This document shows, in pieces, positions 458-15,348 of a DNA stretch of 64,000 nt. Both the position numbers and the translations under genes were made by a program. The notes beneath the pieces are model-generated. The model saw nothing but the letters and a program-made list of their open reading frames with translations. It was not told where the DNA came from and made no database searches. This DNA is from Elusimicrobiales bacterium (GTDB lineage Bacteria > Elusimicrobiota > Elusimicrobia > Elusimicrobiales > UBA9959), in the NCBI GenBank assembly GCA_028688015.1, contig JAQTZB010000001.1:723663-787662 (forward strand), given 5' to 3'. Positions within the stretch are counted from its first letter, which is position 1. Every line of letters starts with the position of its first letter.

Positions 458-981
458 GGTGTCCCCCCGAAAGCAGCGGCAAAGGCCGCGGCCAGGCGGC
501 CGGCTGAAGCGGCTGGAGAATGCGCGGCGGCGCCCGCCGCCGAAAGGCGCCGCAGCGCCATGGCCGCTGGCAGCCGCGTCATTTCCCCGGCGAAAGCCGC
601 GTGCCGGCGCAGGGCGTGAGCCGCGGGCAGCCCCTTCCCGGAGAAAAGCATGAACCTGGAATAGTTTCCCAGCGCCATGGCGAAATTGAGAGTCATCGGC
701 AGGTCCATTCCCGGCAGCGTGGCGCCGCGCCGCGCCCAGGCGAGGGTAATTTCCTGCGAAGCCTGCCAAAGCCGCAGCGAGCAAACCAGCTTTTTGCGCA
801 GGGCGGCCGGCAGACACGCGGGCAGCGCTCTTTCCGCGGGCACGGGGCGGCGGCAAAGCGCGGCGGCCGGCCTGAAGAAAGCCGGGGAGGAGGCGGGCGC
901 GTCGCATGAGAAAGGGGCCTGGCCGAGGACGGCCCGGTGCCAGGCCTTCACGTCAGCGGGAGCGGGAAAAAGCGTCTTCAT
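454..981 (-). CDS. Hypothetical protein in isoprenoid operon
   Basis: A 175-residue protein I do not recognise. It is alanine- and arginine-rich, with no signal peptide and no clear membrane span. The middle third (around MDLPMTLNFAMALGNYSRFM) looks helical and is the least biased part; the C-terminal 45 residues are low-complexity Ala/Arg. It is held by 4-base overlaps on both sides, with the MfnB-like gene upstream and the methyltransferase downstream, so it is very likely translated as part of the operon. An all-helical accessory or degenerate terpene-synthase-like role would suit the context, but no aspartate-rich motif supports it. Confidence 0.6.
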   Translation of the reverse strand: MKTLFPAPADVKAWHRAVLGQAPFSCDAPASSPAFFRPAAALCRRPVPAERALPACLPAALRKKLVCSLRLWQASQEITLAWARRGATLPGMDLPMTLNFAMALGNYSRFMLFSGKGLPAAHALRRHAAFAGEMTRLPAAMALRRLSAAGAAAHSPAASAGRLAAAFAAAFGGTP

Positions 982-1706
982 TTCCCGCAGGCCTCGCGCA
1001 GGGCGGCCATGCGTTTGGGACAGACCGGGCGGGACCTGTCGCCGCCCAGGCAGACAGCGCCGCGCAGGCCGATGATGTCCGGCCCCAGCGCGCGCAGCCT
1101 TGCCAGGTGCTCCGGTTTTACCGAGCCGGCCAGGGCCGTGCGCAGGCCGGCCCCCCGGGCCAGCCGCATGAAGCGGGCGAGCTCCGCCTGGGTCATGTTC
1201 TCGAAAAGAGTGCGCCCGTCCTTGAGCGCCGTATCCAGCATCACCACGGCGGCGCCGGCCTTCTTAGCCGCGCGCACCAGCGGCCACGGGGCCAGCCCGC
1301 CGAAGCGGCGCCAGTCTGCGTAGCCGGAGATCACGGGCAGCGCGCGAGGCGCGGCCGCCAGCACGCCCTTAACGACGGCCGAGGCCAGGTCGAAGGCCTG
1401 CCGCTCGCCCTTGACGCCGTGCAGGCCGGCCTTGACGTAATCGGCGCCGATGGCCGCGGCGGCGTAGGCGGCCAGTGCCGCCGTGCCCGGTTTATACTCC
1501 AGGTCGCCTATGGCCGCGCTGAACTTGAGTCCGGGGCGGCGGAACCGGGCGATGATGCCGGCGAGCACCCAGGGAAAATTTGCGCCGAGCGAGCCTTCCT
1601 TCACGTTTTTAAGGTCCAGGATATCCGCCCCCGCGCGCGCGACTACCGCCGCCTCGCGGAGATTGACCGGGCTGATCAGCAGTTGAATTTTATTTCGGCC
1701 TGTCAT
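978..1706 (-). CDS. (5-formylfuran-3-yl)methyl phosphate synthase-like protein (MfnB family)
   Basis: A 242-residue TIM-barrel protein of the MfnB/DUF556 family. In methanogens MfnB condenses two glyceraldehyde-3-phosphate molecules to 4-(hydroxymethyl)-2-furancarboxaldehyde phosphate for methanofuran. Diagnostic segments are visible: LLISPVNLREA near the N-terminus, DILDLKNVKEGSLGANFPWV carrying the conserved Lys and EGSLG motif, and ADYVKAGLHG with the second conserved Lys. The start is the ATG at 1706, because family similarity begins there; the longer frame from 1802 lies inside the upstream gene. It overlaps the upstream synthase by 17 bases and the downstream gene by 4. No other methanofuran gene is visible, so its product here is unknown. 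Confidence 0.85.
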   Translation of the reverse strand: MTGRNKIQLLISPVNLREAAVVARAGADILDLKNVKEGSLGANFPWVLAGIIARFRRPGLKFSAAIGDLEYKPGTAALAAYAAAAIGADYVKAGLHGVKGERQAFDLASAVVKGVLAAAPRALPVISGYADWRRFGGLAPWPLVRAAKKAGAAVVMLDTALKDGRTLFENMTQAELARFMRLARGAGLRTALAGSVKPEHLARLRALGPDIIGLRGAVCLGGDRSRPVCPKRMAALREACGK

Positions 1707-2742
1707 ATGCCATGTAGCGGGCCAGTCCCGACAGCACCCGCTTTTGCTTCCCGGGCAGCTGCAGCCGCGAGAGCGCGGCCGCCGCCCGGCGGTAAAAAAC
1801 ACCTATCTTCCGCCTGTTCTCCTCAACCGCGCCGCTGGCGCGGACTATATCTATAACATTTTTCAGACGGGCCGGGGAAATGCGGGGATTCCCCAGCGCG
1901 GCGCCCAGCTCGCGGCGCGCGGCCGGCGCGGCGCGGCGCAGCGCGGCGAGGTAGAGGTAAGTGTAGCGGCCGGCCGTGATGTCGTCGGCCAGCGGTTTCC
2001 CCCATTCCGCGGAGCGGGGAAAGAGGTTGAGCTCGTCGCCGTGCAGGTGGTAGGCCATGCCCAGCCAGGCCCCGGCTTGCACGTAGAGCGGCAGGTCGCG
2101 GCGGAGCGCCCCGCCCAGCAGCGCCCCGATGCGGAACGGCCCGTTGAAAGAGAGGAACCTTATGCGGTCCCAGCTCATGGCCAGGTATTCCTCCGGGGTA
2201 GGGCGCCGGCGCGCCGAGGTCCAGAAAAGTTCAAAGGCCTGGCCGTAGCCGTAGGCGAAGATCTCTCGTGAAAGCGAGGCGAGGATCTCCACCCGCCGCC
2301 AGGCCTCCAGCTCCAGGGCCGGGTCCAGGAAGGCCCCGTACGCCCAGTTATAAGCGGCCTGGTAAGCAAGATAGGCCTTCTTTTCACCGTAAACTTTGTG
2401 CGTGGCCGGCCCGCCGCGCCTGGTATCCGAGGAGTCGATGATATCGTCGAAACTGACGGTCGCCGCCTCCATTAATTCTATCGCCCCCAGCGCGGCGGCG
2501 TACCTGGCCGGCTCCTTGCCCAGGCCCTGCAGGATGACATGCGTTATGATGGGGCGCAGCATTTTCCCGGGCCGCGCGAGATAAAGCCGGGCAGGCAGGT
2601 TGACGGCTCTTTCAAGTTCCCCCGCCGGCAGCGGCGGGACGGAGAAGGCCCGGCTGAAGCGCCGCGGAAAAGAGCGCAGCGTCGCGGCCTTTATGAGCCG
2701 CAGTCCCGGGGCGGAGGCCAGGTCGAAGGCCGGCGCGGTCAA
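1690..2742 (-). CDS. Polyprenyl synthetase family protein with atypical second Asp motif
   Basis: Trans-isoprenyl diphosphate synthase fold, 350 residues, expected to extend an allylic diphosphate with IPP. It has the GKMLRP motif (about residues 59-64) that binds IPP diphosphate and a first aspartate motif DDIID at 99-103 followed by RRG. The second aspartate-rich motif, normally DDxxD, reads GDELN at 235-239. This is the most divergent of the three synthases in the operon. The changed second motif could mean altered metal binding, a regulatory subunit of a heteromer, or different chemistry; this is inference. It overlaps the next synthase upstream in an ATGA, and the MfnB-like gene downstream by 17 bases. 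Confidence 0.88.
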   Translation of the reverse strand: MTAPAFDLASAPGLRLIKAATLRSFPRRFSRAFSVPPLPAGELERAVNLPARLYLARPGKMLRPIITHVILQGLGKEPARYAAALGAIELMEAATVSFDDIIDSSDTRRGGPATHKVYGEKKAYLAYQAAYNWAYGAFLDPALELEAWRRVEILASLSREIFAYGYGQAFELFWTSARRRPTPEEYLAMSWDRIRFLSFNGPFRIGALLGGALRRDLPLYVQAGAWLGMAYHLHGDELNLFPRSAEWGKPLADDITAGRYTYLYLAALRRAAPAARRELGAALGNPRISPARLKNVIDIVRASGAVEENRRKIGVFYRRAAAALSRLQLPGKQKRVLSGLARYMAYDRPK

Positions 2743-3767
2743 GCGGCGCGCTCCTTGAGCAGAGAAACGAACTCCAGGATATACTCCCTGAACGGCGCTT
2801 TCATAGCCGGGTAGAGCCCGCGCCCGAAGACCGTCAGGGCCTCGCCGGAAAGTTCTGCCGCCCGCCTGCGGCAGGCGGCGGCGGCGCCCGAGCGCAGTAT
2901 GGTCTCGCGCGCCCAGAGCGCTTCTTTGCGCGGGCGGGAGCGGCCCGGCTCGTAGAAGACTTCGAACCTGCGGCGTTCGGCGCCTTTCAGCTTTTTGAGC
3001 GCCAGGGCCGCCAGCAGTGTTTTTTTCCCCTCCAGCAGGTCGTTGCCCAGCGCCTTGCCGAAAGCTCCGCCGCCTTCGCTCTCAACGTCGAGGATGTCGT
3101 CCATCAGCTGGAAGGCCTTGCCCAGGGCCAGGCCGAAGCTGTCGACGGCCGGGAACAGGTTCCGGCGGCCGGCCAGGATGGCGCCCAGGCGCGCGGTGCC
3201 GACGGTGGTGTAAGAGGCGGTCTTGGCGGCCGCTATGGCGAAGTAGGCCCGCGGGCCGAACTCCGCCAGCGGCCTGGCGCGCCAGCTCAGCTCCAGGTGC
3301 TGGCCGCCCAGCGCCTCCAGCGTAGAGTCGTAGAACTGCTCCAGCACCGGCCCGTAGAGCCGCGGCGGCAGGCCGCAGGAGCGGTAGAGCAGGCGCGGCA
3401 TGATGGCGGTGAGCGCGGCCATGGAGTTCATGGCCGTCTCGCGGCCATAGAGCCGGTGAATGGCGGGCTTGCCGCGCCGCAGCAGGGAGTCGTCCATGAT
3501 GTCGTCGCAGGCGAGCGCCCAGTTCTCGAAGAGTTCGCAGGCGGCGCCCAGGCGCGCGCAGCGCTCCGCAGAAGCGCCCAGGCCTTCGCCGAAGAGGCGC
3601 AGCAGCAGCGGGCGCAGCGCCTTGCCGCCGCGGGCGGGGTAGTCGGCCATGCAGGTGCGCATCACCGCGGGCAGGCCCAGGGTCTCTTCCCGCAGCCAGC
3701 CCTGCATCACGGCGAAAGTCTCCGCCCTGGCCGCCGCCGCGTAGGCGTGGAAAGACGCGCTGGTCAT
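2739..3767 (-). CDS. Polyprenyl synthetase (trans-isoprenyl diphosphate synthase)
   Basis: A 342-residue trans-prenyl diphosphate synthase. GGKALRP (47-53), first motif DDIMD (88-92) with RRG, a GGQHLEL segment and second motif DDILD (223-227) are all present, so it should be catalytically competent. The start is the ATG at 3767, which overlaps the stop of the radical SAM gene in an ATGA; the longer open frame to 3896 runs inside that gene. It is similar in layout to the synthase at 5189-6226 (shared GGQHL and CALPPR-like segments), and the two flank the radical SAM gene, which suggests an ancient duplication. Product chain length cannot be read from the sequence by eye. Confidence 0.92.
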   Translation of the reverse strand: MTSASFHAYAAAARAETFAVMQGWLREETLGLPAVMRTCMADYPARGGKALRPLLLRLFGEGLGASAERCARLGAACELFENWALACDDIMDDSLLRRGKPAIHRLYGRETAMNSMAALTAIMPRLLYRSCGLPPRLYGPVLEQFYDSTLEALGGQHLELSWRARPLAEFGPRAYFAIAAAKTASYTTVGTARLGAILAGRRNLFPAVDSFGLALGKAFQLMDDILDVESEGGGAFGKALGNDLLEGKKTLLAALALKKLKGAERRRFEVFYEPGRSRPRKEALWARETILRSGAAAACRRRAAELSGEALTVFGRGLYPAMKAPFREYILEFVSLLKERAA

Positions 3768-5185
3768 TGTTCCCTCCCGGGGCCGAAGAAGCGCCATCTC
3801 AGGAAAGACAGCAGCCCCTTGTCGTGGTCCAGCGGGCTGTAGAGGTTCATGGCGTCTTTCCGCAGGCGCGAAACGAAAAACGCCCCGACGTTCCACAGCA
3901 CCTCGGCCAGCCAGCCCGGCTTGAAATGGGAAGGGATGCGGCGCAGGATGCTAGGCAGCGAATAGAACCTGCGGTAGGCCCGGATATACTCCCGGCGGAA
4001 CTCTTCTTCGCCCATGTCCGGCCCGCAGAACTTGTAGTCCGGGTACTTGCCGGGCTTGTAGAGCCACCAGTTCTCGCGCTTGAGCAGCCCCTTCCTCTTG
4101 AGGTCGAAATAAAAAGGCGTGGCCGGCAGCGGCGTGAGGTTCCACCAGGCGGCGTAAGGGACGCGCGCCTCTATCAGGAAATCGCAGGCCTTGCGGAACT
4201 GGTCCGGCGCGCCGTAGCCGGGCATGAACACCATGCTCGCCAGCACCGAGATGCCGTGGTCGGCGTAGGCCTTGAGCTGGCGGCGGTAGTCGCCGACGCG
4301 GTTGAACTCCTTGTTGTAGCCGGAAAGCCCCGCCTCGTCTATCGACTCCAGCCCGACGGTGATGGAGCGGCAGCCGCTGGCCTCGGCCAGCTCAAGCAGC
4401 TCTTTGTCGTCGGCACTGGCCAGCGTGGCGTGGCTGACCCAGGAGATCTTCAGCGGGATCAGGGCCCGCAGCAGCTCCTTGGCCCTGGCGTGGTCGCCGA
4501 AGAGGTTATTGTCCACGAACAGGCAGCACTTCGGCTGCAGGGCCTTGATCTCCTCCACCACCTCGGCCACCGGCCGCACGCGGTAAGCGGTTCCCAGGAA
4601 CGGTGAGACGGAGCAGAAGGAGCAGGCATGCGGGCAGCCGCGCGAGGTCTCCACCGGGTAGGCAGGCACGGGTATAACTTTGGACAGCGGGCCGCCGCGC
4701 TTCAGGGTATAGAACTGCTCAGGGTCCAGGAGGTCGTAGCGCGGCACCGGCCAGCCGGTCAGCGGCTGGGTGGGGTCGCCTTTATACAGGCGCTGCGGCG
4801 CCCCGCGCCGGAAATCCTCTACGAAGCGCGGCCACGTGGCCTCCGCCTCGCCCACGAAGACCGTGTCGCAGCGGCCGAGGGCTTCCTCCGGCACCATGCT
4901 CACGTGGATGCCGCCCATCGCGACGTGGGAGCCGCGCCGGCGGAATTCGGCCGCGATATCGTAGGCGCGGGCCATGGATTTGGTGTAGCCGGTTATCGCG
5001 ACGACGTCGGGCGCCCAGCCGTAGTCCGGCTCGGCCAGCAGGTCCAGGTTGATGCGCACCTCTATGTCGCGCGGCGTCAGCGCCGCCAGCCGCGGCAGCG
5101 TGATGGCGGGAATGTAGGCGCGGCCGGTCCGGCTGACGGTGCCGTCGGGGCGGTAGCGGGCCGAATCCACGAAAAGTATTTTCAC
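3764..5185 (-). CDS. B12-binding-domain radical SAM protein (BchE/HpnP-like)
   Basis: A 473-residue radical SAM enzyme. The N-terminal 150 residues have the cobalamin-binding-like Rossmann region with the GGIHVSMVPEEAL segment typical of the BchE/HpnP group. The iron-sulfur motif is C184-x3-C188-x2-C191 (CPHACSFC), followed by a TIM-barrel and a C-terminal region with FYFDLKRKG, as in B12-radical SAM methylases. Start is GTG at 5185, 3 bases after the upstream stop; its own stop overlaps the next gene by 4. Because it sits among prenyl synthases, methylation or oxidation of an unactivated carbon of an isoprenoid is plausible, as HpnP does on hopanoids; this is inference. No classical DxHxxG cobalamin-ligand motif was seen. 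Confidence 0.87.
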   Translation of the reverse strand: MKILFVDSARYRPDGTVSRTGRAYIPAITLPRLAALTPRDIEVRINLDLLAEPDYGWAPDVVAITGYTKSMARAYDIAAEFRRRGSHVAMGGIHVSMVPEEALGRCDTVFVGEAEATWPRFVEDFRRGAPQRLYKGDPTQPLTGWPVPRYDLLDPEQFYTLKRGGPLSKVIPVPAYPVETSRGCPHACSFCSVSPFLGTAYRVRPVAEVVEEIKALQPKCCLFVDNNLFGDHARAKELLRALIPLKISWVSHATLASADDKELLELAEASGCRSITVGLESIDEAGLSGYNKEFNRVGDYRRQLKAYADHGISVLASMVFMPGYGAPDQFRKACDFLIEARVPYAAWWNLTPLPATPFYFDLKRKGLLKRENWWLYKPGKYPDYKFCGPDMGEEEFRREYIRAYRRFYSLPSILRRIPSHFKPGWLAEVLWNVGAFFVSRLRKDAMNLYSPLDHDKGLLSFLRWRFFGPGREQ

Positions 5186-5188
5186 CGG

Positions 5189-6226
5189 TCAATAACTCCT
5201 GGCCAGCAGCAGCCGCATGAAGTCGGCGGCCAGCCCGCCGTAAGGCTTGCGCATGGTGGGATAAAGGTCTGCGGTAAAAGCGCGCAGGGCCGCCCCGGTC
5301 AGGCTGCGGGCCCTCGCCCGGCAGGCCTCGGGCGCTCCGCTGCCCAGCAGCAGAGCGCGCACCCTGGCCACCCGCCCGGCCGTGCGCCAGGCGGGCGGCG
5401 CGGAGTAAAAGCGGGCCAGTTCCCCGGCCTGCGCCCGGGGCAGGCGGCGGAACGCCAGCGCGGCCAGCAGCGTGCGCTTGCCCTCGCGGATATCGTTGCC
5501 CGGGGCTTTGCCGAGCCGCCCGGTGCCGTCGTTCTCGGCGTCCAGCACGTCGTCTATGATCTGGAAGGCAGTGCCGAGGGGCTCGGCGAAGCGGCGGATG
5601 GCCTGGGCGGCGGCGCTCCGGCCGGCCAGGGCCGCGCCGAGCAGGCAAGGCGCCACCGCGGTGTAGAAGGCAGTCTTGCGGCGGGCGATGCGCAGGTAGG
5701 CCGCCGGCGTAAATTCAGCCAGCGGCACGGCGCGGGCCTCTATGTCCAAGTGCTGCCCTCCGAGCGTGATCTCGGTCGCCTCGGCGAACAGGCGGTGCAG
5801 GGCCCGGTAGCGCGCCGGCGGCAGGGCGCAGTAGGAGTAGAGCATATCTCCGACGCAGTCGTGCAGCATGTCCAGCGCGTTCACGGCCGCCGGCACGCCG
5901 TAGAGCACGTGCAGCGAGGGCCGGCCGCGGCGCATCAGCCCGGCGTCCAGCAGATCGTCCCGGCCGAGGCCCCAGTCCTCCAGCAGCTGGTATGTCGCCG
6001 CCACTTTAAGGGCCTGCGCCCGCGGGCCGCCCCACGCGTCGCTGAAGAGCAGCACCAGCGCCGGCCTGAGGGCCTTGCCGCGCCGGTAAGGGTAGTCGGT
6101 CACGCAGCGGCGCATGGACGGCGGCAGCGCGGCGGTCCTGGCGGCGAGGTAACGCCGGATGTGCGCGAACACGCCGTCGCGGCAGGCCGCCAGGTAGTTT
6201 TGGATAGTAAGCCGTGGAGCGTTCAT
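5189..6226 (-). CDS. Polyprenyl synthetase (trans-isoprenyl diphosphate synthase)
   Basis: A 345-residue member of the trans-prenyl synthase family. GKALRP lies at 50-55, first motif DDLLD at 90-94 followed by RRG, and second motif DDVLD at 225-229, so both Mg-binding sites are intact. The residues before the first motif (EDWGLG) differ from the usual hydrophobic surroundings, and those positions influence chain length; no prediction is made. The gene begins 12 bases after the UbiA stop and ends 3 bases before the radical SAM start. Three synthases in one operon suggests different chain lengths or a heteromeric enzyme. Confidence 0.92.
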   Translation of the reverse strand: MNAPRLTIQNYLAACRDGVFAHIRRYLAARTAALPPSMRRCVTDYPYRRGKALRPALVLLFSDAWGGPRAQALKVAATYQLLEDWGLGRDDLLDAGLMRRGRPSLHVLYGVPAAVNALDMLHDCVGDMLYSYCALPPARYRALHRLFAEATEITLGGQHLDIEARAVPLAEFTPAAYLRIARRKTAFYTAVAPCLLGAALAGRSAAAQAIRRFAEPLGTAFQIIDDVLDAENDGTGRLGKAPGNDIREGKRTLLAALAFRRLPRAQAGELARFYSAPPAWRTAGRVARVRALLLGSGAPEACRARARSLTGAALRAFTADLYPTMRKPYGGLAADFMRLLLARSY

Positions 6227-6238
6227 GGGTCAGGGATC

Positions 6239-7042
6239 TCAGGCCCTCAAAAGCCTGGCGGCGAGGACCAGGTTGAAAGCCGCCAGCAGCCACTCGTAGA
6301 AAGCCCGACCCGGCCGCCGCATTGCGGCGAAGGCGAACAGCGCCGTCAGCCAGGTGGAAAGAGCCGCGGGTACCAGCCCCGCCCGGTAGAGGTAGGCTCC
6401 GCCGGCGGTCAGCAGGACGCCGATGCCGGCGGCCGTGGCGCGGGGGCCGAGCAGCACCGGGAGCGTCAGGATGCCGCCCTCCCTGTCGCCGTCCACATCC
6501 CTGACGTCGAGCAATACCGTCAGCAGGAAGACGAAGCCCAGCAGCAGCAGGCTGGAGCGCAGGACCGAAAACAGGAGGCCGAAAGAGAAGTCGTGTTTGA
6601 GAAGGACCGGCACCAGCACGCCTACCAGCCAGAAATTCAGCACGCTGACCAGGCTCTTGACCACGGCGATAGACTTCAGGCGCCGGCCGCTCAGGGACGG
6701 GTCGCTGTAGAAAGGGATTATCAGCAGGGCGATGACTATCATCGGCCAGAAGCCGAGGCGGGCGATATAGACGGCGGGGACCAGCGCGGCCGCGAAGACC
6801 GGCCAGGTGCGGCCCGTGCCCTCCGGCGTGCCAGGGAGGTTCACCGCGTCTTCGCGGGTCCTGAAAAGAGAATCGTAAATGTAGCTCAACTGCACCAGCG
6901 CCCAGAACGAAAGCCCGCACAGCAGGGTCCTGGAGTCCAGCCCGCCCGTCACAGAGCGGGCCGTGTTCAGGAAGAGCAGGAACACGGCCAGCGGCAGCGC
7001 GGCGCGGGCCCGCGTATAGAGCGAAACGATGTTCCCGGTCAT
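6239..7042 (-). CDS. UbiA family prenyltransferase
   Basis: A 267-residue integral membrane prenyltransferase with about eight hydrophobic helices. The first acidic motif is imperfect: YDSLF(R)TREDAVN, with Asp57 and Asp65. The second, LDVRDVDGDREGG, carries D179, D182 and D186. UbiA enzymes move a prenyl group from a diphosphate to an aromatic, haem, sugar-phosphate or glycerol-phosphate acceptor at the membrane. It is the first gene of the minus-strand operon, and a -10-like box (TATAAT on the minus strand, 7054-7059) lies 11 bases before the ATG. The acceptor is unknown; nothing else here specifies a quinone or chlorophyll pathway. Confidence 0.88.
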   Translation of the reverse strand: MTGNIVSLYTRARAALPLAVFLLFLNTARSVTGGLDSRTLLCGLSFWALVQLSYIYDSLFRTREDAVNLPGTPEGTGRTWPVFAAALVPAVYIARLGFWPMIVIALLIIPFYSDPSLSGRRLKSIAVVKSLVSVLNFWLVGVLVPVLLKHDFSFGLLFSVLRSSLLLLGFVFLLTVLLDVRDVDGDREGGILTLPVLLGPRATAAGIGVLLTAGGAYLYRAGLVPAALSTWLTALFAFAAMRRPGRAFYEWLLAAFNLVLAARLLRA

Positions 7043-7095: not shown

Positions 7096-8013
7096 ATGAC
7101 CCCGAGAACGCCAGTTATAGAGCAGTTCAGCCGCCTTTCCCCCGCCTCCCGGCTGGCCCTGGCCGTATTCAGGGTGCGCGCGGCCGAAAGGCCGGCGGGG
7201 ATCCCCGGCTCCCTTTTCCTCGGCCTTACCTCCCGCTGCAGCCTCGCCTGCCTGCACTGCAAGTACCGCGGCGGCGCCGGCGCTTCCGACCTTCCTTACG
7301 GCCTGGCGCTGGGAGCCCTGCGCGAGGCGGCGGCGCTCGGAGTTCCCAAGGCGGTCTTTTTCGGCGGCGAGCCGCTCCTCTACCCCCGCCTCGCCGAGCT
7401 GGCCGGGGCGGCCAGAGACCTGGGACTATTCACAGAGCTGGACACCAACGGCCAGGAGTTGACGGCCGGGCGCGCCCGGGCGCTGGCGCGCGCCGGCCTC
7501 TCTTCGGTAATGGTCAGCCTTCATTCCCCTTCCCCGGCGGAGCACGACCGCCTCTGCGGCCGCGGCACCTTCCGGCGGGCCGCCCGCGCGCTGGCCGCGG
7601 CGCTGAATGCGGGCCTGGTGACCTACGTTTCCTCCTGCGTTTTTGCGGCCGGTCCCGGGGCCCGCGAGCTGCGCGGCCTGCTGGCCTTCGCAAGAAGTTC
7701 CGGGGCTCACGGAGCGCGCTTTCTGCCCTATTCGCCCCGCGCCGGCGCCAGCCGCCTGCCGGCGGCCCTGGCCGCGGCCCTGCGCCGCGAGGACCCGGCG
7801 GGCTTCGCAGGCACCTGCCTGGCCCGCGGGCGCAGCGGCTGCGCCGCGCAGCGCGCCGACATCCTCTATCTCGGCTCTTCGGGCGACCTCCGGGCCTGCC
7901 CCTACGCCATGGCCAGCCTGGGCTCGTTCCCCCGCTGCACGCTGGCGGCCGCGCTGCGGCGCTCCGGCCGGCCGGCGCGCGGGCCCGTTCGCCCGTGCCA
8001 AAAGCGGGCCTGA
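7096..8013 (+). CDS. Radical SAM protein, SPASM-like (PqqE/RiPP-maturase type)
   Basis: A 305-residue radical SAM enzyme with C48-x3-C52-x2-C55 (CSLACLHC) and the SAM-binding GGEP motif in KAVFFGGEPLLYP. The C-terminal part has extra cysteines (GTCLA, SGCAAQ, RACPYA and a final PCQKRA), as in SPASM or twitch auxiliary cluster domains of peptide-modifying enzymes such as PqqE. The next gene is a PqqD-like protein, the usual partner that delivers a precursor peptide. It is the first plus-strand gene after the divergent promoter. No Shine-Dalgarno sequence is evident before the ATG. Modification of the 34-residue peptide at 8315-8419 is inferred from context. Confidence 0.87.
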   Translation: MTPRTPVIEQFSRLSPASRLALAVFRVRAAERPAGIPGSLFLGLTSRCSLACLHCKYRGGAGASDLPYGLALGALREAAALGVPKAVFFGGEPLLYPRLAELAGAARDLGLFTELDTNGQELTAGRARALARAGLSSVMVSLHSPSPAEHDRLCGRGTFRRAARALAAALNAGLVTYVSSCVFAAGPGARELRGLLAFARSSGAHGARFLPYSPRAGASRLPAALAAALRREDPAGFAGTCLARGRSGCAAQRADILYLGSSGDLRACPYAMASLGSFPRCTLAAALRRSGRPARGPVRPCQKRA

Positions 8014-8033: not shown

Positions 8034-8318
8034 ATGGCGGGAGCAAAACAAAACAGCGGCGTTTCGGCGGCCATCACCTGGCGCAAGACCGGCGACGAGG
8101 CCGTGATCCTCAACCTCGAGACTTCCGAATATTACTCCCTTAACGAAACCGGCACCTTCATCTGGGAGCTGCTCGCCGCGGGCAAGCCCGCCGCCCGCAT
8201 CGCCGAAGCCCTCGCCGCCGAATATGGCGTTACGGAGGACCAGGCCGCCGGGGACCTGGCCGATTTCCTCAAGGACCTGTCGAAGCACAAGATACTCAGC
8301 CGGGAGACGGCAAAATGA
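8034..8318 (+). CDS. PqqD family peptide-recognition protein
   Basis: A 94-residue protein with the PqqD fold: EAVILNLETSEYYSLNETG (the strand-turn of the winged helix), then FIWELL and a long helical tail with TEDQAAGDLADFLKDL. PqqD-type domains (RiPP recognition elements) bind the leader of a precursor peptide and present it to a modifying enzyme. It lies 20 bases after the radical SAM gene, and its stop overlaps the start of a small peptide gene in an ATGA, so the three are almost certainly translated together. No catalytic residues are expected. Confidence 0.9.
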   Translation: MAGAKQNSGVSAAITWRKTGDEAVILNLETSEYYSLNETGTFIWELLAAGKPAARIAEALAAEYGVTEDQAAGDLADFLKDLSKHKILSRETAK

Positions 8319-8419
8319 AACCCACCAAAAGCCAGCCGCGGAAAGACAAGAAATACCAGAAGCCGAAAGTGAAAGCCCACGGTAAGATAAGTGAAGTCGC
8401 GTCCGCCTTCAAACCGTAA
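8315..8419 (+). CDS. 34-residue lysine-rich peptide, putative RiPP precursor with lasso-leader-like motif
   Basis: A short open frame (ATG 8315, TAA 8417-8419) translationally coupled to the PqqD-like gene by ATGA. The 34 residues include ten lysines. A leader-like motif is visible: Y14-x2-P17-x-V19-x3-G23, within KKYQKPKVKAHGKISEV. Lasso-peptide leaders recognised by PqqD-like domains use Y-x2-P-x-L-x3-G-x5-T (family knowledge). Here Val replaces Leu and Ala29 sits at the Thr position. What follows is only SAFKP, far too short for a lasso ring. It might be a precursor with a very short core, a peptide scaffold, or an unrelated small protein. The downstream acyltransferase start overlaps it by 29 bases. 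Confidence 0.7.
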   Translation: MKPTKSQPRKDKKYQKPKVKAHGKISEVASAFKP

Positions 8420-9380
8420 GCCGAAGACGGCCTTTCTTTTCCCCGGCTCCGGCGCGCAGTACCCGGGCATGGGGCGCGGCCTCAGGGACGCCTTCCCCGC
8501 CGTAGAACAAAACCTCCGCTCTATCAATTTGGCCATAGGCCGCGACATAGCCGCCGCTATGGACGGCCCGGAGGCCCTGCTGTTTCCTCCGGTAGACTCT
8601 CCCGACCCCACGGTTTTCATGGAAGTCACCATGGCCCTGGCGCTGGCCGTGGGCCGATCGCTGGCCGCGGCCGGAGCGCGCCCCGATTTTGCGGCGGGCC
8701 GCAGCATGGGAGAATACAGCGCCGCCGCCTTCGCCGGAGTTTTCTCCGACGCCGACTGCTTCAGCATGGTCCGCTACGTAACCCTGAACGGGCAGCAGGA
8801 CTGCCTCGATTCCCCGAGCTTCCTCGTCACCGTCTACGGGCTGGACCGCCGCGAACTGGCGGCCGCCGCGCGGCAGGTGGAGCTGGGCGGAGAACTCTGC
8901 GAGGTCGTAGCTTTCTACGACAAAGCCCGCCTCGGTGTCGCCGGCCTCCGCAAAGCCGCGCTGCCGCTGCTGCGCGCCGCGCTGGCTCCCCACCGCCACC
9001 GCATCTCCCTCTCGCGCGAGGTCGGCGCGTTCCACACGACGTTGTTCAACCGCCTCTCCGCCCGCGCCGCCGTTTATTTCGACGGGGTAAAGTTCGCCCC
9101 GCCGGCTATCCCGCTCTACATGAACGTAGACGGCAAGCGCGAGCTTGCTCCGGCGGGGCTTAAACGTAAACTAGCCGCGGCGCTGGTGCGCCCCGTGCTC
9201 TGGCAGGAGACGATAGCCGCGCTGCTGCGCGCAGGAACCCGCACCTTCGTGGAGCTGGCGCCGGGCGCGATGCTGACCGAGTTCGTCTGCGAACTGCCCG
9301 CCGACGCCGAAGTGCTGCGCACCGACACGCCAGAGAATTACCGCCGCGCGCTGGCGCGGCTCAAAGCCGGATGCCGCTGA
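8391..9380 (+). CDS. Malonyl-CoA:ACP transacylase-like acyltransferase
   Basis: A 329-residue protein of the FabD/acyltransferase family. FLFPGSGAQYPGMG at 16-28 is the N-terminal signature. The nucleophile motif is GRSMG with Ser105; the usual His before the serine (GHSxG) is Arg. The catalytic His is seen in GAFHTTLF (His215), and the C-terminal VELAPGAMLTEF is also typical. Start is GTG at 8391, inside the peptide gene; no better start precedes the conserved core. It overlaps the kinase-like gene downstream by 10 bases. A free-standing copy in a RiPP-like operon rather than a fatty-acid operon suggests acyl transfer onto the peptide or a carrier; this is inference. Confidence 0.85.
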   Translation: MKSRPPSNRKPKTAFLFPGSGAQYPGMGRGLRDAFPAVEQNLRSINLAIGRDIAAAMDGPEALLFPPVDSPDPTVFMEVTMALALAVGRSLAAAGARPDFAAGRSMGEYSAAAFAGVFSDADCFSMVRYVTLNGQQDCLDSPSFLVTVYGLDRRELAAAARQVELGGELCEVVAFYDKARLGVAGLRKAALPLLRAALAPHRHRISLSREVGAFHTTLFNRLSARAAVYFDGVKFAPPAIPLYMNVDGKRELAPAGLKRKLAAALVRPVLWQETIAALLRAGTRTFVELAPGAMLTEFVCELPADAEVLRTDTPENYRRALARLKAGCR

Positions 9381-10369
9381 ACAGGTATTTCGATTTCCAC
9401 GGCTGTACCGTGGAGTTCTCCACACCGGACCAAACCCTGGCGGCGGAAATCTCCTTCGACTTTTCCGCCTTCGCCGCGCCCCCCTCCGAGCCCGACATAA
9501 GGATAGCCGCCCTGCCGGAACGCCTCCCGGCCGCGCTGCCGGGCGCCCTGCTGAGCGCCCGGCGCTGGAGCGTGCTGCGCTCGGAGCCGGGCCGCCGCCT
9601 GGCGTGGTATCCGGGCGGCGCCCTCTGCGAGTACGACTACGCCGCCCGTTCTGGCGTCCTCAGGAGCGAAAACCCGGCCCTGCTGCGCGAGCTCGCCTAC
9701 CTGCTGATCCTCTCGCGGGCCGGGGAGCACCTCGACCGCCGCGGCCTGCACAGGGTGCACGCCGGGGCGCTGGGCTGGCGCGGCCAGGCCCTGCTCTTCT
9801 GCGGCGCGCGCGGCGCGGGCAAGACTACGCTGCTGCTGGAACTGCTTAAAGATACGCAATTCTCACTGCTCTCGGACGACACACCGCTCGCCGACGGGGC
9901 GGGCGGTGTGCATCCTTTTCCCGTGCGGGTAGGTTTGGGGCTCGACAGCCCGCACCTGCAGGATTTCGGCGGGCTCAGGGATTTTACGCGCCGCGGTTAT
10001 CCACCCAAACGCCTGCTTGACCCCGCGGCGGCGGGCTGCAGGATCTCCGGGACGCTGCCGGTGGGGCGCATCTTCCTGCTGCGGCGCGCCGCCAGGCCGC
10101 GCATACTAACGCGCCGAGTCTGCGCCTGCGCGGCAGAGCTGGCCGTTTCCCTGGCGGCCGGCTATGGCACGCCCCAGCTGGCGGAGTACTTCCTCCGCCT
10201 CTCGCCGGAAGACCTGCTGGCCAAGGCCGGCATACTGGCCTCCCGGCTGCGCGCCGCCGGCGCCCTGCTCGGGCGCGCCGGCTGTAATGTTTTTGAATTG
10301 TCCCCTGACCGCGGGGCTAACGCGGCGGCGCTGAGGGCTTTCCTTCGCAGCGGCAGCGCCGGGGTTTAG
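9371..10369 (+). CDS. HPr kinase-related ATPase (HprK-like, RiPP/exopolysaccharide-associated type)
   Basis: A 332-residue protein with an N-terminal region of unknown type and a C-terminal HprK-like P-loop. The Walker A motif is GARGAGKTT (about 144-152), followed by LLSDDTPLAD and PFPVRVGL, the pattern of HprK-related proteins that accompany PqqD, nucleotidyltransferase and lasso-type genes. In paeninodin-like lasso clusters such a kinase phosphorylates the C-terminal serine of the peptide (established for that family). Whether this one phosphorylates a peptide is inference; Ser26 and Ser30 of the small peptide are the only serines near its C-terminus. The gene overlaps its upstream neighbour by 10 bases, and the convergent glycosyltransferase by 53 bases. 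Confidence 0.82.
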   Translation: MPLNRYFDFHGCTVEFSTPDQTLAAEISFDFSAFAAPPSEPDIRIAALPERLPAALPGALLSARRWSVLRSEPGRRLAWYPGGALCEYDYAARSGVLRSENPALLRELAYLLILSRAGEHLDRRGLHRVHAGALGWRGQALLFCGARGAGKTTLLLELLKDTQFSLLSDDTPLADGAGGVHPFPVRVGLGLDSPHLQDFGGLRDFTRRGYPPKRLLDPAAAGCRISGTLPVGRIFLLRRAARPRILTRRVCACAAELAVSLAAGYGTPQLAEYFLRLSPEDLLAKAGILASRLRAAGALLGRAGCNVFELSPDRGANAAALRAFLRSGSAGV

Positions 10370-11348
10370 CCCCGCTGATAACCCGGCAAAACAAACCCTC
10401 CGCCAATCCAGAGAGCCAGCCCGCGGCGTAGACCGTATGCAGCGCCGGAAAAAGCGCCAGGACGGCCAGCTTAACCTCCGGGCGCGCCCGGCTGAACAGC
10501 GCCGCGCCGGAAGAGACGGTCACGTGCAGACAGGCCGCCGCGCCGAGCAAGTCCGGGGCCAGGACCGCGGCGGCGGCCGCGCAGACCAGCGCGGCCGGCG
10601 GCAGCAGCGTGAAAAGCGAAAACCCCTTCGTGCTCAGGGCGGTGATCTGGCCGCGCCCGCGCCCCGACGTGAAAACCTGGCGGATAAAAGCCGGGGGGCC
10701 GCTGCGCCGGCGGTGTATCAGGTTAAGGTCCCCGCTCAGCAGCATGCGCGCTCCGGCCGCCGCCAGCCGGTTGAGAAGCAGGTTTTCCTCGGCGCTGCTC
10801 AAATGACCTTCGAACGCCAGCCCCCGCGCACGCAGGAACAAAGAATCCACGGTGAGGTTGCACAGTATGAATTTTTCCGGGCCCGCGGGCCGGGTGCCGG
10901 CGACCGGAGAAAATCTTTCAGTGAATGGCCCGCCGCCCCACGGCGAGGCCAGCAGGGCATAAACCGCCTCTTCGAAATACCCCGAGTCCGGGGATAAAGA
11001 CTGCCCCCCCCCGAAGACCGAAACCCCCGGGTTCAGCTTCAGAAGCCCGCGCAGGCGGGAGAAATAGCCGGCGGGCAGAGTCACATCGTCGTCCAGGAAA
11101 CAGAGCCAGCGGCCGCCGGCGGCGGCCGCCAGCGCGTTGCGCGCCTCGCCGCGGCACGAGCGCGGCAGCCGCAGGACCTTTACGGCCGGGAAAGCCTTCA
11201 GCGCCAGTTCGGTGGGCGGGTCCTCCCCGTCTATGCCTACCAGTATTTCGTCGGGCGGCTCTGCGGAGAAGCTGCCCAGGCAGGCGGCCAGGAGTTCCGG
11301 CCGGCCGCGCGTGAGCACGAGGGCGGATATCCCGCAGTCAGCGGCCAC
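10317..11348 (-). CDS. GT2 family glycosyltransferase
   Basis: A 343-residue family 2 glycosyltransferase. The N-terminus ISALVLTRGRPELLAACLGS is the GT-A start, the metal-binding motif is WLCFLDDDVTLP, and SSAEENLL resembles the acceptor-base ED region. The C-terminus has one or two hydrophobic stretches (FTLLPPAALVCAAAAAVLA), so it probably sits on the membrane. I chose the GTG at 11348, which overlaps the upstream stop by 11 bases, because the GT-A domain begins just after it; an ATG at 11396 is possible. Its 3' end overlaps the convergent HprK-like gene by 53 bases. Sugar and acceptor are unknown. Confidence 0.82.
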   Translation of the reverse strand: MAADCGISALVLTRGRPELLAACLGSFSAEPPDEILVGIDGEDPPTELALKAFPAVKVLRLPRSCRGEARNALAAAAGGRWLCFLDDDVTLPAGYFSRLRGLLKLNPGVSVFGGGQSLSPDSGYFEEAVYALLASPWGGGPFTERFSPVAGTRPAGPEKFILCNLTVDSLFLRARGLAFEGHLSSAEENLLLNRLAAAGARMLLSGDLNLIHRRRSGPPAFIRQVFTSGRGRGQITALSTKGFSLFTLLPPAALVCAAAAAVLAPDLLGAAACLHVTVSSGAALFSRARPEVKLAVLALFPALHTVYAAGWLSGLAEGLFCRVISGAKPRRCRCEGKPSAPPR

Positions 11349-14300
11349 CGGCTGCCTCCAGGGCCGCGCGCGCGTGCGCCGCCACGAATTCATAATTTGC
11401 CCGGCAGGCCCCGCCCGCCGCGAATTCGCTCCAGGCCGGCTCCCCGGAGTAAGCGGCGCGCAGGCGCTCGCCCAGCGCGGCCGGGCCGGAGAAAGGCGGG
11501 CACTCGCCGGTTTCGAGGAGCAGGCGCAAGCCGGCCGCGCGAGTGTAAAAATAATGCGGCGGCATGGCGCCCCAGAGGCTGCGCCAGGAGGCGCCGAAAT
11601 GCCGCGCCGCCAGCGCGGCTCCTTCCGCGGCCGCGGGCGCTGCAGGCGGGGCGGGCAGTTCCAGGTTCCAGGTGAAAACGCCCCCGTCCTCCGGAGAGCG
11701 GCCGCCGGGGGCGGCGGCCAGGTCAAGGCAGAAAAGCGGGTTATTCAGGTACGGCAACCGGGCAAGGAAGGCGAAGGAGGCGCGGGTAAGAACGAGCGGC
11801 GCGGCCGCGAAGTAGGAGCCTCCCCCTCGCAGGGCGGCGGCGGCGCGCAGGAAAGCGGACTTGTCCCCGGCTACGGCGTCCGGCAGCACCAGATATACCC
11901 GGTAGAGGGAGTCCAGCGCCACGCCGGCTTCGCCGCCAGCCGACCCGCGCAGGCGCTCGCAGGCGGCCTCGAAAGCGTGGCGGTTGAACCAGCCGGGAGC
12001 AGCGGACCGCGCCGCCAGCGCCGGGCCCGCGGCGGGAGAGGCCGCGTGCAGCGCAGAGAAAGCCAGGAAGGCGGCGTCCTCCGGGGAGGGCGCGCCGGCG
12101 CCGGGGGCCAGGCGGTGCGCCGCCGCATAGTCCGCCCTGGAAGCTCGCAGCGGGGAACCGCGGTCGAGATAGCGTTTGACGTCTGCCAGGCCCTTCAGGC
12201 AGTTGCGGGCCCTGAAGGCGGGCGGCAGGCCGGCGGCCAGAAAATGTGAGAGGAGCAGGGTGTAGGAATAAAAGGCCTCGGTCGCGTCGGCCGCGCGGCC
12301 TTCCCGCTCCGGGGGCGCCGGCAGCGGCGGGCCGGCCAGCAGGCGGGAAGCGGCGCGGAACTCGGCGCCCTTTAAGCCCCAGCCTGAAACGAAGCCGGAA
12401 AAGTCCTCCGCCGGGGCGGAGAGGACCTCGCCGGTGAACGGGAAGAGGGCCCTGAAAACCCGCAGCCGGCTGCGCAGGGCCGAGAAGGCGGCCCAATCGG
12501 CCGCGGGGGTCAGTCGCGGCTGCAGCAGGGCCAGGTCCATGTCGCTCAGGCCGGCCACCCAGCCAGGCGCGGCCATACCGCGGTAGAGATAGACCGAGCT
12601 GCCGCTCCCGGGTTTGAGCAGGAACCCGGCAGCCCTGACTCCGGCGAGGTAGAATTCCCGGTACAGCGCCCTGAAGAGGGGCAGGTGCGCCGTCGCGGCC
12701 GCGAAAGCGGCCAGGGCCGGCCTGAGCCTGGCCGGGGCGGGCGGCACAGGCTGAGGGCGCCAGGGGGTTCCGTCGAAAGTTACCGCCCGGCAGAGAAGGC
12801 GGGCTCCGCCGCCCGCGGCGAGGCCCGGATAAGGCGCTCCTGAGAAAGCGGAATTTTCTACGCGGGCCGAGCCGCCGGTCAACAGAAGTCCCCCGCGCGC
12901 CCCCCCTTCGGCCGCGAGGCCGGACAGGAGCAGCCTGGCCCCGGAAGAATCCACCGCGTAGGCGGAGGCGCGGATCGTCAACCCCTCGGCGCGCATCAGC
13001 CCGGGGCCGGCCGCCAGCAGGCCCCCGGTGCCCGAGGCCGTTACCGACCGGAGGCGGGCCTCCGCCCCGGCAAAATCCAGCGCCGCACCGGTCCCGCCGG
13101 AAAGCGAACATCCCGAGAGGTCCAGCGTCGAGGCGCCGCGGCAATAGACCGCGTCGCGCGCGGATTTGAACGAAGAGCCTGCGGCCCGAAGGCCGGCCGT
13201 TCCCTCCAGGCTGGCCGCGGGTCCGGAGAAACTTTCGGACGAGCAGCGGGCCAGGCTGCCCGAGCCGCCCTCCCGCAGCAGCAGCGCCGCCGGCTCTCCG
13301 GATGAAACGCAGGCCCGGGCGTCCAGCACCGCGTTCCCGCAAAGTTCGAAAGAAGGCCCGCCGTTGCCTGAGAAAGAACAGTCCGCGGCCTCAACCTCTG
13401 CGCGGCCTGCCAGGGCTACACCGGAAGAATTACCGGTGAACGCCGATTTCTCAAGGACGCTGCGAGCCCGCCCGTCCAGGAGGAGCGGGGCCCCGCGCTG
13501 CCCCTCGAAGCGGCAGGCTGCTACGCAGGCCGCTGTATCTCCGGCAAAGTGCAGTCCCAGGCCATTGCCGCTGAAGACAGAGCCCGAGACCAAAACAGCA
13601 CTGCGGCCGGAGACGACGGCGGCGGGACCCGCGTTGGCGCTGAACAGGCAGCCCTGCAAAACTAATTCCAGGCAGTCCTCGGCCCGCACCCCGGCCTTGC
13701 AGTCTTCAAAGCGGCAGGCCTCGGCGGAGAAGCGCGCCGCCCTGTCCAGTTTGAAAGCGGCGCCGGAGGAGCCGGCAAAGACGGAATGCGCCGCGCGCAG
13801 TTCCCCCCGCCCGAAAAAAGCCGCGGCCGTCTCGCCCCCGGAGACTGCGCAGCGGTCGAGGGAAAGGCGATTATACCCGTAGGCCTGCAGCGCCGGCCCT
13901 TTTCCCCCGGAGAAGGAGCAGCCAGTGAAAACAGATTCGTTGCGGCCGTAAAACTGGGCGCAGGGCCCTGCGGCCGAGGAGAAGGCGCTGGACTCGAACC
14001 GGGTGCTGGTGGCGCCCTCGGCCCTTACCCCTGCGGGGTTTGCCGTAAAAGAACTGCCGACGGCGGTCAGCGAAGACCTATCAGAGCAGGAGAGGGCGCG
14101 GCCTCCGGCCCCGGAGACCGAACATCTTTCGAGGCGGACGGCGGCGCGGCCCGACACGGAAAAACCTGCGCCGCACCCGGCTGCGGTGAAGCCGTAAAAC
14201 CCGGCGGCCGCGCTGCCCGAGATCTCGGCGGCGGCCCCGCGGCACCCGGCCGAGCCGCCGTGCGCCAGCAGCGTGGCGTGGCCGGAAACCAGGAAGGCGG

Positions 14301-15348
14301 AGCCGCCGCAGGCGGCGACGGAGCAGCCGGTGAAAGCCGCGTTCGCGCCGCCGTAGAGTTCGACGCCGCGCGCGCAGGCGTCGAGCGAGCAGGCGGCGGC
14401 CAGTCCTTCGGCCGAATCGCGGACGGAAAGGGCGCAGGAAGCTGAGCCCGACAGGCGGCAATGGCGCAGGTCTACGCGCCCGTCCCCGAGCGCGTGGACC
14501 CCGGAGAAGGCCGGCCCGCCGAAGAGTATAGGTTCCGCAGGCGTTCCCGCGGCGAGCAGGCGGCCGTAGACCAGCAGCTTGGCCCCGGCGCTCTCCAGCT
14601 CCAGTTTTTCCCCGCCGCCGCCGGCGCGCAGGACCGGGAAGAACCAGGGTTCACGGCGTTCAAAAACCAGTTGTGTGCCTGGCAGCACCGTCACGGTGAC
14701 ACCGGCCTCTATGGTCAGGTAGTCCGCCACGGCCATCCTGCCGCCCCAGGTCTCGTCGGAGGTTACGCGCCCGCTCCTGACCGCCGCAGCCGCCGGGGCC
14801 GGCGCGCCCCCGCGGGGCAGCGCGGGGGCGGCCAGCAGCCGCAGCAGGGCCGGGTAAAGGCGGGTCTCCCAGGCCAGGTAGAGTGAGTTAAGCTGCGGGG
14901 CGGCGAAGGCGGGCCGCAAGCGGCAGGCCAGCGAGAACAGCCCGGCGGCCGCCGCGGCCGCGGCGAAAAGGAGTTTATTGGCCGCCAGGGAATAGAGCGG
15001 CAGCAGCAGCGAGGGCCAGAGCCCCCTCGCCAGCTCATAGCGCCGGCCGCCGCGCAGCAGGGCCGCGGCCGCGCCCGCCGGCTGGTAGGAGGAAGGCGGC
15101 CAGTCGGGCAGCAGGTTGGCGTCCCCCCTGGTCAGCACGGGGCCGCCGGCGAACGACAGGTTCAGGACCACCCGGTGGAGCACATAGCCCGACGGCAGGC
15201 CTCCGGACCAGCGCACCAGCAGCGCTATGTCCCCCGCCCGCAGCGCGGCGGGCGCGCAGGGACGGGCGGCCACGGCGTCTCCCGGCTCCAGCAGGAAGCG
15301 CATAGAGTGACCGAGCACGGGATAGAGCTTTTCCAGAAAAGGCCTCAA
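11338..15348 (-). CDS. Fusion: archaeal-type signal peptidase / right-handed beta-helix / nucleotidyltransferase
   Basis: A 1336-residue three-part protein. Residues 1-90 match S26B (SipW/archaeal-type) signal peptidase: GHSM with Ser15, YVLHRVV with His58 in place of lysine, and TRGDAN...D with Asp82. A hydrophobic stretch follows at about 105-135. From about 199 to 850 there are many short repeats of the kind A-x-x-C-x-F-x-x-N/G-x-G-x-A, typical of parallel beta-helix proteins and introduced by a TWGG...VLPGTQLVF cap. From about 860 to the end there is a nucleotidyltransferase-like domain with GLSDMDLALL near 935, as in the NTP_transf_5 family. S26-like proteins, HprK-like kinases and these nucleotidyltransferases recur separately in PqqD/lasso-type clusters; here two are fused. 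Its start overlaps the upstream glycosyltransferase stop in an ATGA. Confidence 0.78.
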   Translation of the reverse strand: MRPFLEKLYPVLGHSMRFLLEPGDAVAARPCAPAALRAGDIALLVRWSGGLPSGYVLHRVVLNLSFAGGPVLTRGDANLLPDWPPSSYQPAGAAAALLRGGRRYELARGLWPSLLLPLYSLAANKLLFAAAAAAAGLFSLACRLRPAFAAPQLNSLYLAWETRLYPALLRLLAAPALPRGGAPAPAAAAVRSGRVTSDETWGGRMAVADYLTIEAGVTVTVLPGTQLVFERREPWFFPVLRAGGGGEKLELESAGAKLLVYGRLLAAGTPAEPILFGGPAFSGVHALGDGRVDLRHCRLSGSASCALSVRDSAEGLAAACSLDACARGVELYGGANAAFTGCSVAACGGSAFLVSGHATLLAHGGSAGCRGAAAEISGSAAAGFYGFTAAGCGAGFSVSGRAAVRLERCSVSGAGGRALSCSDRSSLTAVGSSFTANPAGVRAEGATSTRFESSAFSSAAGPCAQFYGRNESVFTGCSFSGGKGPALQAYGYNRLSLDRCAVSGGETAAAFFGRGELRAAHSVFAGSSGAAFKLDRAARFSAEACRFEDCKAGVRAEDCLELVLQGCLFSANAGPAAVVSGRSAVLVSGSVFSGNGLGLHFAGDTAACVAACRFEGQRGAPLLLDGRARSVLEKSAFTGNSSGVALAGRAEVEAADCSFSGNGGPSFELCGNAVLDARACVSSGEPAALLLREGGSGSLARCSSESFSGPAASLEGTAGLRAAGSSFKSARDAVYCRGASTLDLSGCSLSGGTGAALDFAGAEARLRSVTASGTGGLLAAGPGLMRAEGLTIRASAYAVDSSGARLLLSGLAAEGGARGGLLLTGGSARVENSAFSGAPYPGLAAGGGARLLCRAVTFDGTPWRPQPVPPAPARLRPALAAFAAATAHLPLFRALYREFYLAGVRAAGFLLKPGSGSSVYLYRGMAAPGWVAGLSDMDLALLQPRLTPAADWAAFSALRSRLRVFRALFPFTGEVLSAPAEDFSGFVSGWGLKGAEFRAASRLLAGPPLPAPPEREGRAADATEAFYSYTLLLSHFLAAGLPPAFRARNCLKGLADVKRYLDRGSPLRASRADYAAAHRLAPGAGAPSPEDAAFLAFSALHAASPAAGPALAARSAAPGWFNRHAFEAACERLRGSAGGEAGVALDSLYRVYLVLPDAVAGDKSAFLRAAAALRGGGSYFAAAPLVLTRASFAFLARLPYLNNPLFCLDLAAAPGGRSPEDGGVFTWNLELPAPPAAPAAAEGAALAARHFGASWRSLWGAMPPHYFYTRAAGLRLLLETGECPPFSGPAALGERLRAAYSGEPAWSEFAAGGACRANYEFVAAHARAALEAAGGR

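Follow-up and report, generated by a model that had tools for sequence, protein, structure and literature searches.

Linear polyphosphorylated peptides (LPPs) were described by Popov et al. in 2026 and are defined by a signal peptidase, a discrete RiPP recognition element (RRE), an HprK-like kinase, an NTP transferase and an MsbA-like exporter (PMC13381572). Their precursors are 35-200 amino acids (aa) in length and carry a leader motif (YxxPxVLxHQxIxFETxxS, or Px9Fx[T/A]) that is cut after the T located 12 positions beyond the Pro (P+12); in the characterised LPP, Ser 3 of a 45-residue core is phosphorylated (PMC13381572). The same paper states that LPPs are restricted to Bacillota and gives their final product and role as unknown (PMC13381572). 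An HprK-like kinase and an NTP transferase also act as tailoring enzymes in paeninodin-like lasso peptides (PMC13381572).

The locus analysed here lies in a 64,000-nucleotide stretch of DNA from an Elusimicrobiales bacterium, hereafter called the window, and our search of the open-access literature found no published account of such systems in Elusimicrobiota. The assembly totals 3.34 Mb over 58 contigs, with a completeness of 97% and a contamination of 6.9%. It is a MAG, as are the genomes compared with it. The genes of the putative operon are tightly packed in the order radical SAM (rSAM)-PqqD-peptide-acyltransferase-kinase, with 20 bases between the first two (Table 1), and a family 2 glycosyltransferase (GT2) and a large fusion protein follow on the convergent side.

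Table 1. Features of the locus, with their positions and strand in the window.
Feature	Position	Strand	Remarks
Divergent isoprenoid/furan block	978..7042	-	MfnB-like 4-HFC-P synthase, three polyprenyl synthases, B12-rSAM, UbiA
Radical SAM protein	7096..8013	+	CX3CX2C; C181, C241, C249, C268 in 13/13 aligned, C301 in 12/13
PqqD-type RRE	8034..8318	+	N37, D74 invariant 17/17, equivalent to LppB N33, D70
34-aa precursor peptide (putative)	8315..8419	+	Leader ~residues 1-29 (MKPT..GKISEVA); predicted core SAFKP (LPP register) or FKP (AxA-type cut); predicted cut sites
FabD/MdcH-like acyltransferase	8391..9380	+	Ser nucleophile and His kept in 15/15 aligned
HprK-like kinase	9371..10369	+	P-loop; H130, K151, D170 invariant 20/20; named by weak matches
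Family 2 glycosyltransferase	10317..11348	-	Next to kinase in most loci examined
1336-aa fusion protein	11338..15348	-	N-terminal archaeal-type signal-peptidase (S26B) domain, beta-helix, C-terminal nucleotidyltransferase-like domain (GLSDMD)
Nucleotidyltransferase-like domain	11341..12798	-	S85, D86, D88, E124 invariant 16/16; GxSDxD-type motif
Second family 2 glycosyltransferase	15345..16154	-	Convergent side

A preliminary description of this DNA had pointed to an ATGA-coupled ORF of 34 residues behind PqqD, with ten lysines and the motif Y-x2-P-x-V-x3-G, and to rSAM, acyltransferase and HprK-like neighbours. The ORF reads as described at 8315-8419 (+), its translation being MKPTKSQPRKDKKYQKPKVKAHGKISEVASAFKP, and the neighbours are found at the coordinates given, the HprK-like name coming from weak matches. 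The start codon of the peptide lies on the stop codon of PqqD, the motif is Y14-x2-P17-x-V19-x3-G23, an Ala stands at the position of the lasso-leader Thr, and the C-terminal end is SAFKP. In a search with this single peptide, 17 of 150 genomes (own genome included) proved to be carriers at E<1e-5, with PqqD adjoining each time, and a lenient pattern of our own making picked out an SD-like sequence upstream of 16 of 18 peptide copies. The distribution, the constant company of PqqD and the SD-like sequence together indicate that the peptide is more than a chance ORF. Ten places gave weaker matches (E 0.03 to 1); inspection by eye counts two of them, in G093 and G026, among the true relatives and suggests noise for the remaining eight. 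The contiguous gene order was seen in 15 of the 17 carriers. In G030 the rSAM gene reaches the contig end; in G031 the locus is split over contigs, with genes other than rSAM upstream of PqqD; and in G049 a different rSAM lies between the peptides and the acyltransferase. On the convergent side, the GT2 and the beta-helix/nucleotidyltransferase protein are joined, contig permitting, by the S26B part of the latter and by the second GT2. The earlier suggestion that the ORF encodes a leader of the kind bound by PqqD-type domains, with about five residues left over, is supported: a lack of conservation of the frame or the Y..P.V...G residues in relatives was to refute it, and both are conserved.

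The tail SEVASAFKP was found in 16 of the 17 carriers (once as SDVASAFKP), G049 being the exception. Over 16 genomes, pN/pS was 0.013 for SEVASAFKP vs. 0.154 for the stretch Y..HGKI, a near-invariance that argues against a decayed leader. The peptide ORF overlaps that of the acyltransferase by 29 bases. In the 15 genomes with this overlap, seven of nine codon positions vary (the stop counting as one of the nine in the peptide frame); at these seven, residues change 7/7 times in the acyltransferase frame and 7/7 times in the unused third frame, but only 1/7 times in the peptide frame, and synonymous changes in the acyltransferase frame of the overlap number zero. Moreover, in G053 the two genes do not overlap (they are ~200 bases apart) and the tail is identical. 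The frame comparison and the G053 tail thus show that the overlap is not the cause of tail conservation and, together with the tail pN/pS, led us to reject a chance ORF or overlap artefact. These data confirm, at the level of sequence, that the ORF is a real, strongly conserved peptide resembling a precursor. A decayed lasso precursor or chance ORF could be argued from the lasso-like leader and the lack of lasso enzymes, but strong purifying selection on the tail and the occurrence of the peptide in 17 genomes leave this idea with next to no probability.

The overlap also invites a reading in which the peptide controls translation of the acyltransferase, by arrest or coupling, with its Pro-stop placed over the acyltransferase start codon. 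The GTG start is kept in 13 of the 15 overlapping genomes and the final Pro in 16 of the 17 carriers, as such a role would predict. The G053 tail is, however, kept ~200 bases away from the acyltransferase, the tails of G049 differ, and the RRE motif is left unexplained. Furthermore, in 21 loci around further peptides of the phylum (many on contigs that end early), the stretch read contained PqqD in 10 and the kinase in 7, but an acyltransferase was matched in none. We consider a role in translation control very improbable.

The exceptional genome, G049, has two tandem peptide copies in which the first 30 residues are nearly alike and the tails read IIVRE and ADDDPVR, respectively. One leader followed by different tails marks a boundary between leader and core. 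Both cores are without Ser or Thr; phosphorylation of the core therefore cannot be universal. To see how far such peptides extend, we ran two profiles over 340 genomes of the phylum. The first, built from 17 peptides that all belong to the window's family, matched 35 genomes (E up to 0.01), including similar short ORFs outside the family. The second, of 26 rows, many of which are its own matches, found peptides in 39 (E up to 0.003), with nine newly found places at E 2.5e-9 to 5.6e-5. The match in G338 is weak (E 0.0018) and contains a stop, and weak matches of the first profile in G035, G052, G070 and G328 are absent from the result of the second. One of the profiles used (A5) has several rows that stop one residue short of the peptide end.

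The 27 peptides that we read against the DNA are 34-42 residues long, with 8-14 Lys plus Arg, and share the leader pattern [Y/W]x2Px[L/I/V/M]x2HG, with 8-17 residues after HG. Different short tails stand behind a common Lys-rich leader, with ends such as SIVEGD, ALAHSY, ASFRTFY and AFSALY. The stretch after HG reads VLSIVEGD at seven places, [AEV]L[SA][QK]TALA[HR]SY at five, ASFRTFY or ASFSYTY forms at four and PL...AAFS[AL]LY at three; SLEPEIRAFQLLY and single ones are among the others. Read by eye, many tails have a small residue at -1 and a small or aliphatic one at -3 ahead of a 3-5 residue end, which would fit a signal-peptidase-type cut in many of them. VLSIVEGD does not follow this pattern, and the LPP register would give it hardly any core.

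The PqqD-type protein matches Pfam PF05402 above its cut-off (76 bits); in NCBIfam it comes closest to models of lasso PqqD chaperones, without reaching their cut-offs (54.9 vs. 70). Among solved structures, its closest relative is TbiB1, a lasso RRE (E 2.6e-12, 50.3 bits), followed by PbaB1 (9x90) and LppB (9x8z, 27.9 bits). Mapping through 9x8z shifts the LppB numbering by +4 in the window's PqqD, and all 17 residues named in the LPP paper agree at this one constant offset. In that paper, N33 and D70 of LppB hold the Pro kink and the Tyr of the leader (PMC13381572). At E up to 1, the 17 peptides themselves matched four models, three for lasso precursors (best E 0.017) and the fourth yajC, which lends the leader weak support.

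Among 20 members of the kinase family, all NCBIfam matches were weak: TIGR04352 (HprK_rel_A) matched 19 at E up to 0.1, TIGR04355 (HprK_rel_B) 18 and hpr-ser nine, with the window's kinase scoring below cut-offs (20.3 vs. 200 for TIGR04352). Pfam Hpr_kinase_C was found in three of the 20 and general AAA models in more, and the solved structures matching the kinase included P-loop proteins only and no HprK. With NCBIfam matches that are weak but consistent, and Pfam and structures unsupportive, HprK-like is the best name for this putative kinase, though not a proven one. A scan of named genomes placed the closest kinase, at 90% identity, in Elusimicrobia bacterium GWC2_64_44; of 24 further loci, one is labelled Altiarchaeota and the rest belong to Elusimicrobia or unassigned bacterial MAGs.

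The peptide is linked to this kinase family across the phylum. The kinase profile (340 genomes, E up to 1e-10) matched 56 genomes, two of them (G310, G315) by partial and weak matches. Peptide and kinase occur together in 37 genomes, the peptide alone in two (G181, G338), the kinase alone in 19 and neither in 282 (Fisher p 6e-33, to be read in the light of the fact that the genomes are related, such that the co-occurrences are not independent events, and that family members went into both profiles). Inside the genus, 15 genomes have both, 17 have neither and none is discordant; outside the family, the corresponding figures are 18 with both, two with the peptide only, 19 with the kinase only and 242 with neither. 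In 14 of the 19 kinase-only genomes, a search near the kinase turned up only one chance-level, nine-residue fragment (L168). Of the 14 kinase-only loci examined (L163-L176), 10 have a GT2 adjoining the HprK-like kinase, as do several of L089-L096; kinase and GT2 are perhaps an older pair acting on other substrates.

A short, Lys-rich peptide with so tight a kinase co-occurrence might also be a small adaptor that is never cleaved and serves purely as a tether between PqqD and the kinase or another partner, and the VLSIVEGD tail, with almost no core, would suit such a role. Against this, the tandem copies combine one leader with different tails, and the leader register is that of a known cleaved precursor. 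We regard the adaptor as quite unlikely.

Turning to the other enzymes, the extra conserved Cys of the rSAM protein probably hold an auxiliary cluster, judging by their alignment. The acyltransferase is assigned to the FabD family by sequence. The position of the malonyl-binding Arg of FabD is variable in it, weakening a malonyl-CoA reading of the enzyme. The S26B domain of the fusion protein is a weak match to archaeal signal peptidase (TIGR02228, E 3.8e-4, 20.4 bits, cut-off 51.85), with a Ser/His/Asp pattern (GHSM..HR..GD-type) in 14 of the 14 fusion proteins reached by contigs. For the nucleotidyltransferase-like domain, 16 members gave no informative Pfam match and two chance-like ones. 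The fusion frames of relatives run from 1023 to 1865 residues, an unusual domain combination.

The isoprenoid/furan block is tied to the operon by position, and its role in a pathway is conjectural. In 13 of the 17 carriers, UbiA has a homologue no more than ~10 kb away, the remaining four having a contig end or, in G031, other genes. An MfnB-like gene was found in 11 of 150 genomes (own genome included); 10 of these are among the 17 carriers and one is not. We group with this block an isopentenyl-phosphate-kinase-like gene at 16144-16899 (-); the block as a whole is partly conserved beside the operon. A TPR-repeat membrane protein is encoded at 16926-18656 (+); one similar by eye (L068:6004-7716, -) is found near the kinase in G014. 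No acyl-carrier match was seen in the window. Elsewhere in the genome (contig C40:294773-295795), one 2282-residue frame has four tandem acyl-carrier domains, an arrangement that recalls PUFA-type synthases.

These neighbours bring up the possibility of a carrier or scaffold peptide, for which pearlin and LysW offer analogies: with the peptide held by PqqD, its C-terminal Ser, Lys or Pro would be the site of assembly of a small molecule (acyl, phospho, prenyl or sugar), whose release would either regenerate or use up the peptide. Consistent with this, the tail hardly varies across 16 genomes and is shorter than peptide products usually are, the acyltransferase has a variable malonyl-Arg site, the window lacks an acyl-carrier match, and the divergent UbiA/polyprenyl/MfnB block adjoins. 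The tails nonetheless vary among genomes and between the two tandem copies, and a leader-peptidase-type domain accompanies the peptide; a carrier function is for us an unlikely explanation, though less so than an adaptor.

LPPs are the closest described kind of system, and the peptidase and nucleotidyltransferase-like domains found here are likely counterparts of theirs. With the LPPs as described (PMC13381572), the locus shares a discrete PqqD-type RRE, a leader of the form YxxPx[V/I] that has His at P+5 and Ile/Leu at P+8, an HprK-like kinase, an archaeal-type signal peptidase, a putative nucleotidyltransferase(-like) domain, nearby glycosyltransferases and the lack of a lasso cyclase. Counted in the LPP register, the leader of the window family agrees with the LPP motif in its Y (-3), P (0), V/I/L (+2), H (+5), I/L (+8) and A (+12), and the Ala at P+12 gives a predicted core S-A-F-K-P. 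The Phe of the LPP leader (Phe -3) is, however, missing at P+10, and F(-3)E(-2)T(-1) is absent. In contrast to the LPPs of that paper, the host phylum is Elusimicrobiota rather than Bacillota; peptidase and nucleotidyltransferase-like domain are fused around a beta-helix, with the protease in a convergent gene outside the operon; an rSAM and an acyltransferase belong to the operon and an exporter is missing from the cluster; and the precursors are 34-42 aa, with a predicted core of 3-5 residues in the window's peptide, vs. 35-200 aa and, in the characterised LPP, a 45-residue core. No match to PF00664, the family searched for an MsbA-like exporter, was found in the window, and the nearest on the contig is ~177 kb from the peptide. 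The RRE also scores better against TbiB1 (50 bits) than against LppB (28 bits), which speaks against the LPP clade. With exporter and leader Phe lacking and the RRE nearer TbiB1, we do not claim strict LPP membership. As far as sequence can tell, the enzyme types agree with LPPs except for the exporter, the kinase and nucleotidyltransferase on weak evidence, and would suit an LPP-like working.

Paeninodin-like lasso peptides, as portrayed in the LPP paper, likewise share with the locus an RRE, the leader motif, an HprK-like kinase and an NTP transferase. The preliminary description had noted no lasso protease or cyclase nearby, and this holds more widely: a genome-wide search for the lasso B2 family PF13471 gave 0 matches at E 0.001, and the seven genome matches to an Asn-synthase-like cyclase all lie outside the peptide's contig (C51). 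A lasso precursor was rejected on these grounds. In addition, an Ala replaces Thr(-2), and at most five residues follow the predicted cut, too short for a lasso macrolactam ring of 7-9 residues. The HPr-rel-A system (TIGR04352/TIGR04353) resembles the locus in pairing an HprK-related kinase with a PqqD-family chaperone; membership was rejected on scores below cut-offs (kinase 20.3 vs. 200, PqqD 24.6 vs. 35). Mycofactocin and PQQ precursors have a very small C-terminal core, and their systems are similar in the PqqD-like protein, the rSAM and family 2 glycosyltransferases resembling MftF. The window's tail differs, however, and its rSAM, PqqD and glycosyltransferases fall below the equivalog cut-offs; to our knowledge, a kinase and an acyltransferase are no part of these pathways. 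Membership of mycofactocin, GeoRSP or SynChlorMet systems was rejected, the window proteins scoring below cut-offs.

The same genome has a second cassette (L125:8358-10938, on contig C48), with like loci at L126, L127, L128, L129 and L135. All six combine PqqD, a peptide and an rSAM, with the leader YxKPxxK[TS]EK[VI]FET and a Cys-rich tail (AALACGKCxTGPxxQxACKxLK); an S26-like peptidase was weakly matched in five of the six and an HprK-like gene in four. The FET of this leader is the LPP cut motif. The cassette may be a separate RiPP class.

We favour, with a probability of about 0.65, the reading of the window's peptide as the precursor of an LPP-like, RRE-guided modified peptide with a core of 3-5 residues, for which the following binding, chemistry, cleavage and product can be proposed. 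Homology and the conserved pocket residues suggest that Y-x2-P-x-[V/I/L] lets the leader join the PqqD-type protein as an extra beta strand; this protein would then present the C-terminal residues to the rSAM, HprK-like kinase and FabD-like acyltransferase. By analogy with LppK, the kinase would phosphorylate Ser. The signal-peptidase-type domain of the convergent fusion would cut off the leader at ..SEVA|SAFKP in the LPP register, or at ..ASA|FKP with small residues at -1 and -3, and the fused nucleotidyltransferase-like domain and the glycosyltransferases would finish the product. Of three options offered in the preliminary description, a RiPP with a tiny core fits best; a truncated precursor is not supported, the tail being the most conserved part of the peptide. 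A broader possibility, which we put forward tentatively, is a widespread minimal RiPP class in Elusimicrobiota, in which a Lys-rich [Y/W]xKPx[L/I/V]x2HG leader and a PqqD-type RRE would bring swappable cores of 3-6 residues to an HprK-like kinase and a fused protease/nucleotidyltransferase. In the window's lineage, the rSAM and acyltransferase might act further on the core, and the UbiA/MfnB block might supply a prenyl or furan unit to be attached to it; the outcome would be a lipid or cofactor of peptide origin.

If true, the favoured reading would place enzyme types of the LPP kind in a phylum distant from Bacillota, to which LPPs are described as restricted (PMC13381572), along with a fused protease/nucleotidyltransferase-like protein. 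With cores this short, mass spectrometry could follow the chemistry much more readily, and the system would show to what size an RRE-guided product can shrink. The natural swap of tails behind one leader offers a ready test of leader/core modularity.
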